Position numbers and translations under genes: made by a program
Assembly: GCA_902574695.1 (NCBI GenBank)
Contig: CACGON010000001.1
Span: 124,001 to 188,000 of the forward strand
Direction: 5' to 3'
Source of the DNA: an uncultured Pelagibacteraceae bacterium
Lineage (GTDB): Bacteria > Pseudomonadota > Alphaproteobacteria > Pelagibacterales > Pelagibacteraceae
Length of the DNA: 64,000 nucleotides
Shown: one piece after another, positions 38,982 to 45,269 of the stretch
Numbering within the stretch: the stretch's first letter is position 1
Layout of the letters: the number at the start of each line of letters is the position of its first letter
The notes under the pieces: model-generated
Database searches by the model: none
What the model was told of the DNA's origin: nothing
Seen by the model: only the letters and a program-made list of their open reading frames with translations

Positions 38982-39057
38982 TGGTGCCCCTTGCCCGACT
39001 TGCACGGACGACTTTTTCCTTACCATGGAAATACTCTACTACCTGAGTTAAAGGGGC
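38982..39057 (-). tRNA. tRNA-Thr (GGT) with non-canonical elbow
   Basis: Reverse strand GCCCCTT TA ACTC AGGTAGTA GAGT A TTTCC ATGGTAA GGAAA AAGTC GTCCG TGCAAGT CGGGC AAGGGGC A CCA; all stems pair. Confidence 0.92.
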
Positions 39058-43166: not shown

Positions 43167-43239
43167 GGGTCTCTGGTGTAGCTGGTGCGCACGAACGCCT
43201 GAAAAGCGTTAGGACCTGGTTCGTTTCCAGGGGGACCCA
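43167..43239 (+). tRNA. tRNA-Phe (GAA), CCA not fully encoded (ACCT)
   Basis: GGGTCTC...GGGACCC acceptor, GTGT/GCAC D stem, AACGC-CTGAAAA-GCGTT anticodon arm, CCTGG-TTCGTTT-CCAGG T arm. Confidence 0.85.
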
Positions 43240-43356
43240 CCTTAATACATTAAAATTACTCTTAATTATCCTCTTGCAATAAATTTTAAAATCTAATACT
43301 TAGTCATCAGCTAATTTAGCTATAAGTTAACAATAAGAAGAAAGAGTAAAACAAGT

Positions 43357-43734: not shown

Positions 43735-43796
43735 GCCAGCTATTAATCATTTTAAAATTTAAATTTATTAACAATTAGTATAAAAAGAAAGAGAAC

Positions 43797-43870
43797 GCCT
43801 TGGTGGTGAAATAGTATCACGTCGGTTTGTGGATCCGAAGTCGTAGGAGCGTAACCTACCCAAGGTACCA
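43797..43870 (+). tRNA. tRNA-His (GTG) with non-canonical elbow, ends 4 nt before hisS ATG
   Basis: GCCTTGG TG GTGA AATAGTA TCAC G TCGGT TTGTGGA TCCGA AGTC GTAGG AGCGTAA CCTAC CCAAGGT A CCA. Confidence 0.85.
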
Positions 43871-43874
43871 AAAC

Positions 43875-45269
43875 ATGAATAAAGAAAACAAACTCAATCC
43901 ATCCTTACCATCTGGATTTGAAGATCGTTGGGGTAAAAAGCTGGTTCTTAAAAAACAGCTTATAAGAATAATTGAAAAAAATTTTATAAAGTTTGGAGCC
44001 GAACCATTAGAGACTCCATCCTTCGAGTATACAGAGAACATTGGATCATTTTTAGCCAATGACGAAGATAACCCTATGTCTGATATTTTTACTTACGACG
44101 ATCGAACTAAAAGTATTAGTTTAAAGTATGATCTATCAAGTCCCTTGGCTAGATTTTATGCACAATTTAATCAGGAACTTCCGTCTATTTATAAAAGATA
44201 TGCAATTCAAAATGTCTTTAGAAATGAAAAACCTTCTAACGGCCGCTACAGAGAGTTTTTGCAAGGAGATTTTGACATTATAGGAAATGTTAATTTTGCA
44301 CAGGCAAATGCTGAACTATGTAACTTAATATCTACCACTCTCAAAGATATCGGTCTTAATAAAGATCAGTTTACAATTAATGTAAGTAATAGAAAAATAG
44401 TTCAAGGGTTAATTGATGATTTAAAGATATCAAAAGACAAACAATTAAAAGTAATTAGAGCAATCGATAAATTAGATAAGCCTGGATTTGGTTTAAAAGG
44501 AGTTGAGGATCTTCTTAAAAAAGAAAGAAAAGATCAAAGCGGTGCTATAACTAAAGGAGCTGATTTAAGCGATGATCAAGCAGAAAAAATATTAAATTTT
44601 TTAAAAATAAAAGATTTACAAGAATTAAGAGAAAACTTAAAAAATCCATTATCACAAGAGGGAATAAAAGAATTAGAGGATGTATTTGAGGTAATAAGTT
44701 ACGGATCTAATTCAAATCAAGTAAAAATAAATTTTACAATTGTACGTGGCCTTGCATACTATTCAGATTTTATTTTAGAAACAAATCTTAATTTTAAAGT
44801 TACAAACAGTAAAGGTAAACGTGTCGACCTAGGCAGTATTTGCTCAGGGGGAGGATATGCAAAATTAATATCAAGATTTAAAGGGGTAGATGTACCTGGA
44901 ACAGGTATTAGTTTTGGTATTGATAGATTATTATTTGCTTTAATTCAATTAGATCAAATTAAAATAGGGGATCAAAAACCTGTTTTAGTCTGTGTAATGG
45001 AGCAAAAATATCTGAAGAATTATTATGAAATAGTCGATTTATTGAGAGATAATAATATAAATGCCGAAGTATTTCTTAGTACAAAAAAAAATCTTAGCAA
45101 GCAACTTGATCTAGCAAATAAGCGCGAATTAGCGGTTGCAATCATTTGTGGAGAAAATGAGTTTAAAAATAACACAATTACGATCAAAAACCTTAGAGGA
45201 GAAAAAGGTAAAAATAATCAAACAATTCCAAAAGCTGATTTAATTAATGAAATCAAAAAATTTGTTTAA
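43875..45269 (+). CDS. hisS: histidyl-tRNA synthetase; start moved from 43827 to the ATG after tRNA-His
   Basis: YDLSSPLARFYAQF, QGDFDIIG, VRGLAYYSDFILE, PGTGISFGIDRL. Confidence 0.95.
   Translation: MNKENKLNPSLPSGFEDRWGKKLVLKKQLIRIIEKNFIKFGAEPLETPSFEYTENIGSFLANDEDNPMSDIFTYDDRTKSISLKYDLSSPLARFYAQFNQELPSIYKRYAIQNVFRNEKPSNGRYREFLQGDFDIIGNVNFAQANAELCNLISTTLKDIGLNKDQFTINVSNRKIVQGLIDDLKISKDKQLKVIRAIDKLDKPGFGLKGVEDLLKKERKDQSGAITKGADLSDDQAEKILNFLKIKDLQELRENLKNPLSQEGIKELEDVFEVISYGSNSNQVKINFTIVRGLAYYSDFILETNLNFKVTNSKGKRVDLGSICSGGGYAKLISRFKGVDVPGTGISFGIDRLLFALIQLDQIKIGDQKPVLVCVMEQKYLKNYYEIVDLLRDNNINAEVFLSTKKNLSKQLDLANKRELAVAIICGENEFKNNTITIKNLRGEKGKNNQTIPKADLINEIKKFV

Follow-up and report, generated by a model that had tools for sequence, protein, structure and literature searches.

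A tRNA-His gene directly before hisS in Pelagibacteraceae probably heads the operon, and its excision probably leaves a near-leaderless hisS mRNA

Results and Discussion

A tRNA-His gene lies directly upstream of hisS in nearly all SAR11 loci read, and ends only a few nucleotides before the hisS start codon. We consider it fairly likely that this tRNA heads a hisS-hisZ-hisG unit, that its excision probably leaves a near-leaderless mRNA, and that such junctions are a SAR11-wide habit. SAR11 bacteria rank among Earth's most abundant organisms; to our knowledge, little is known about how translation starts on their streamlined genes. With its exact spacing kept throughout the family and no Shine-Dalgarno sequence, the tRNA-ORF junction offers a case in which the generation of mRNA 5’ ends by tRNA maturation can be tested directly. 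If true, such a mechanism would link the supply of a tRNA with the supply of its synthetase, and bacteria would have a counterpart of the tRNA punctuation seen in mitochondria.

The tRNA-His/hisS locus

The window is a 64,000-nucleotide stretch of DNA from an uncultured Pelagibacteraceae bacterium, and contains the following features of the locus.

43779..43784, + strand: TATAAA, probable -10 element of the tRNA-His/hisS unit, from sequence only
43797..43870, + strand: tRNA-His (GUG), 74 nt including the encoded CCA; Rfam RF00005 and cloverleaf scan
43871..43874, + strand: spacer AAAC, from the tRNA CCA to the hisS start; the entire hisS 5’ leader if the tRNA is excised
43875..45269, + strand: hisS, histidyl-tRNA synthetase (HisRS), 464 aa; TIGR00442
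45247..46290, + strand: hisZ-like gene, ATP phosphoribosyltransferase regulatory subunit; best match PRK12295
46287..46967, + strand: hisG, ATP phosphoribosyltransferase; TIGR00070 (E=2.9e-47, above cut-off)

The initial annotation placed the tRNA end four nucleotides before hisS, and its coordinates are right: the CCA occupies 43868-43870 and the ATG begins at 43875. The tRNA begins at G1 (43797), which forms the end pair G1:U72, has A73 as its discriminator (43867), and is without a templated G-1. It scores 50.7 bits with Rfam, above the 29-bit cut-off, and a custom cloverleaf scan finds the acceptor, D and T stems all complete, and a single U-U mismatch at 31:39. ARAGORN makes no call for this tRNA in the window, probably because of its non-canonical D-loop and T-loop; these are short or odd (AAUAGUA, 43810-43816, and AGCGUAA, 43848-43854), with A18 and G55. 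No second tRNA-His is present among the tRNAs found in the window’s genome, which is 88% complete. The notion that the gene is a pseudogene, with a normal copy elsewhere, is not supported, as a pattern search of genomes with this tRNA type (type C), which detects canonical copies only, yields no other canonical tRNA-His.

The hisS product matches TIGR00442 with 330.8 bits (cut-off 286.75; E=1.1e-98). The start of the hisZ-like gene, whose match to PRK12295 (E=3.6e-73) falls under the cut-off of that model, overlaps the 3’ end of hisS by 23 nt, and the adjoining ends of the hisZ-like gene and hisG also overlap. Upstream of tRNA-His in the window are a hisD-like gene, infA, a tRNA-Phe gene and a cold-shock gene. 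The 3’ end of tRNA-Phe (43167-43241) reads CCCACCTTAAT, and its encoded CCA seems incomplete. The order hisS, hisZ, hisG recurs at almost every locus of the relatives, and hisD, infA and the cold-shock gene precede hisS in most.

Conservation among relatives

A HisRS search of 197 Pelagibacteraceae genomes found relatives in 178, and the loci read comprise 90 from the family in detail and 80 from named SAR11, some of these genomes being incomplete. Of the 90 family loci, 89 have tRNA-His immediately before hisS, as do 78 of the 80 named SAR11 loci; in the three loci without an adjoining tRNA-His, the contig ends there. The hisS start codon is ATG in all 167 loci, and the A-rich spacer, which reads AAAA in 97, measures 3–7 nt in 161 and 4 or 5 nt in 153. 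The spacing proposed for comparison across SAR11 is thus conserved, despite tRNAs that are only 52–74% identical between types, and is not a matter of chance. Longer spacers are present at six loci, with 19–47 nt in L033, L035, L036, L044 and L156 and 11 nt in L048; because of the first five, the tight gap is not indispensable. These five spacers adjoin different tRNA types, and each can fold a short hairpin.

With GUG tRNAs sought by our own cloverleaf scan only, the adjacency is found in 0 of 22 loci of a sister family in the same order and in 0 of 69 loci of other alphaproteobacteria. As far as sampled, it is therefore a Pelagibacteraceae trait, and an origin ancestral to the alphaproteobacteria is rejected, given its absence from the sister-family and class loci scanned. 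No earlier description of the linkage in SAR11 was found in the literature searched; it is not described in PMC3937112 or PMC9976931.

Transcription and translation signals

A TATAAA motif is located about 10–15 nt (mostly 10–12) 5’ of tRNA-His in most loci, and is present in 80% of the 167 loci versus 4% of random 37-nt windows. An in-frame stop codon separates the tRNA 5’ end from the hisS ATG in 124 of 167 loci; therefore, the ATG following the CCA is the real start, and hisS does not as a rule begin within the tRNA, so that an N-terminal extension of HisRS from there is rejected. Since the TATAAA is conserved and these stops are frequent, we infer that tRNA-His, hisS, hisZ and hisG share one transcript. 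The co-transcription previously suggested for tRNA-His and hisS thereby gains support, as a different promoter would have neither room nor conserved sequence.

A Shine-Dalgarno sequence within the tRNA itself, the only place that the initial annotation could find for one, does not hold up across types. The AAGG in the window belongs to one type, lying in the acceptor stem of type C, and upstream of hisS types A, B, E and F have no SD-like 4-mer. The proposal of a near-leaderless hisS mRNA fares better, conditional on tRNA excision, which would leave only the 3–7 nt spacer. When the window transcript is folded computationally, the acceptor, D and T stems form and the spacer and start codon stay unpaired; the fold energy is no more stable than that of shuffled sequences (z=0.38). 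No T-box matches the window at the Rfam gathering threshold.

Exchange of tRNA-His alleles

The 167 loci contain 37 distinct tRNA-His sequences that fall into the seven types, and these types interleave among close relatives on the HisRS tree. Type C alone needs seven changes on this tree, at least five of them forced by well-supported branches. Loci L028 and L030 have near-identical HisRS genes and different tRNA types, and the upstream sequence of L030 is common to L022. tRNA-His alleles have thus been exchanged in place, with homologous recombination as the simplest route, while the 4–5 nt junction persisted. Across these sequences, U72-A73-CCA is kept in 166 of 167, the exception being the long-spacer locus L044, and the GUG anticodon is kept in 167 of 167, a count that reflects the GTG required by the scan.

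Tight tRNA-ORF junctions in SAR11 genomes

Of 80 tRNAs in three Pelagibacteraceae genomes, about 20 end 8 nt or less before a same-strand ORF, compared with 2 of 73 when one genome of the sister family and two of other alphaproteobacteria serve as outgroups (Fisher p=5e-5; the baseline counts ORFs, not curated genes). Both outgroup junctions have TTG starts and may be spurious. Three further pairs are kept at every locus read: tRNA-Gln precedes pcnB by 3–5 nt in 30 of 30 loci (L371–L400), tRNA-Leu(CAA) precedes a fadD-like gene by 4–8 nt in 28 of 28, and tRNA-Leu(UAG) precedes tig by 4–21 nt in 28 of 28, with the gene names taken from Pfam. As a member of the poly(A) polymerase/CCA-enzyme family, pcnB is another tRNA-metabolism gene behind a tRNA. 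The four-base gap is thus unusual among the alphaproteobacteria compared and not unique within the window’s genome. Since equally tight junctions precede pcnB and the fadD-like gene, and tig has a similar one, the junction is not peculiar to HisRS.

A model for hisS expression and its alternatives

In the model that we prefer, a tRNA-His-hisS-hisZ-hisG unit, fixed in Pelagibacteraceae, has the tRNA as its first cistron, and the TATAAA would place the transcript 5’ end a few bases upstream of the tRNA. The tRNA would be cut away and hisS probably translated thereafter, because the folded tRNA occupies the site where the ribosome needs single-stranded mRNA. The processed message would then retain the 3–7 nt A-rich spacer as its leader, devoid of a Shine-Dalgarno sequence. 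Many other SAR11 tRNAs would likewise head operons, ending 3–8 nt before the AUG of cognate and non-cognate genes. The most likely selective reason is genome compaction together with tolerance of leaderless initiation, and a linked dosage of tRNA-His and HisRS would be a side effect. Caulobacter, also an alphaproteobacterium, has many leaderless mRNAs and translates them efficiently (PMC4117421). Among candidate processing enzymes, RNase E/G is found in 12 of 12 SAR11 genomes, and RNase Z yields weak matches only, none above the curated cut-off, in the same 12; this weighs against the model, as do the five long spacers and the unremarkable fold energy. The one weak match examined is set aside as RNase Z; it is a metallo-beta-lactamase-fold protein beside tatD, which we take to be PhnP-like. 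A stronger form of the model, in which excision is a required licensing step for hisS, pcnB, fadD-like, tig and other housekeeping mRNAs and ties mRNA output to tRNA maturation, is a tentative possibility that we think rather doubtful; if true, it would amount to mitochondria-like tRNA punctuation in a free-living bacterium.

A stable stem 4 nt from an AUG normally blocks initiation, which argues against the alternative that streamlining merely placed tRNA-His beside hisS and that the unprocessed transcript is translated, excision being irrelevant to hisS expression. For this to work, the ribosome would have to unfold the acceptor stem or start at the A-rich spacer. The many tRNAs near ORFs speak for such packing, and so do the short SAR11 intergenic regions (median 3 nt; PMC2704228), which also favour our preferred model; however, across 167 loci the length of the gap has outlasted several tRNA swaps, always before an ATG, and we regard packing alone as unlikely. 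Less probable still is the idea, raised in the initial annotation as feedback by HisRS on its own synthesis, that HisRS binds tRNA-His still joined to the hisS mRNA, blocks excision or the entry of ribosomes, and thereby holds down HisRS synthesis, much as the E. coli thrS operator does, but with a real tRNA. The pair is cognate, unlike the other tight pairs, and by our own rough estimates a cognate synthetase would arise by chance about once in 1300 per junction, and chance cognate pairing is put under 1%, so that the cognate status of hisS may matter. The pairing has also survived tRNA swaps, and U72-A73-CCA and GUG are kept while the remaining tRNA changes. However, any functional tRNA-His must keep its recognition elements, no further conserved leader structure is seen, and the same junction stands before non-cognate genes; the feedback proposal has gathered no positive evidence.

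The lowest probability is given to a promoter of hisS’s own within the tRNA gene and independent of the tRNA, which we judge very improbable. Bacteria do have internal promoters, and this general precedent is matched by nothing specific at tRNA-His. The conserved TATAAA instead sits 5’ of the tRNA, and the wholesale variation in tRNA-His sequence between types means that no internal promoter is conserved.

Comparison with known systems

The processing model most closely recalls mitochondrial tRNA punctuation, in which tRNAs also abut ORFs and excision leaves mRNAs almost without a 5’ leader; in SAR11 the tRNA-His 3’ end is correspondingly few nucleotides from the start codon, at 3–7 nt in 161 of 167 loci. 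Unlike mitochondria, SAR11 bacteria are free-living, encode the CCA, and show no RNase Z above cut-off in the 12 genomes searched; each tRNA would head its own small operon, whereas mitochondrial tRNAs punctuate one genome-length transcript. In Escherichia coli, a tRNA is co-transcribed with the translation protein gene tufB, but across a longer spacer and with tufB having its own ribosome site, in contrast to the SAR11 gap of 4–5 nt without a Shine-Dalgarno sequence. The leaderless and non-SD mRNAs of Caulobacter (PMC4117421) resemble hisS in SD-less initiation at or near the mRNA 5’ end, although there the end results from transcription starting at the AUG and in SAR11 it would result from tRNA processing. 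The E. coli thrS operator (PMC9976931) similarly puts a tRNA-shaped RNA immediately before the gene of the synthetase with matching amino acid specificity. That operator is a tRNA mimic and synthetase-specific, whereas SAR11 has a genuine tRNA gene, apparently its sole tRNA-His, an architecture shared by pcnB, the fadD-like gene and tig, and regulation through it is hypothetical.

The derived alphaproteobacterial tRNA-His/HisRS pair lacks G-1 and has A73, U72 and the anticodon as its identity elements (PMC9976931, PMC3937112). The SAR11 tRNA conforms to this RRCH-type form: it has A73 and U72, and a templated G-1 is not the rule, the -1 base being U in 115, A in 36, G in 11 and C in 5 of the 167 loci. 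On the enzyme side, the derived form has Gly in place of the motif 2 Gln; motif 2 of the window HisRS reads RNEKPSNGRYR, with Ser at the Gln position, and across Pelagibacteraceae this position is Gly in 65, Ser in 3 and Gln in none, with 108 sequences that the pattern could not read. To the known identity trait of the derived pair, SAR11 adds the linkage of the two genes.

Unusual elbows in SAR11 tRNAs

The elbow pair G18/U55 is present in 113 of 145 distinct SAR11 tRNAs and is replaced by A18/G55 in 26 (His, Phe, Val-GAC and Thr-GGU), 7 of which are tRNA-Phe with A18 read from an ambiguous D-loop; there is no clear mixed case, and 6 are not classed. This looks like a compensatory exchange of the elbow pair. 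The A18/G55 elbow occurs in several tRNA-His types, including that of the window. A tRNA-Val(GAC) (L292, G000 C9:40566-40637) and type C tRNA-His have in common the D-loop AATAGTA, the T-loop AGCGTAA and an identical T-arm, GTAGG.AGCGTAA.CCTAC, which suggests exchange between tRNA genes or convergence. A tRNA-Thr(GGU) in the window (38982-39057, - strand) is called by ARAGORN, missed by the Rfam window scan and scored at 53 bits in the whole-genome search, and it also has the A18/G55 elbow.
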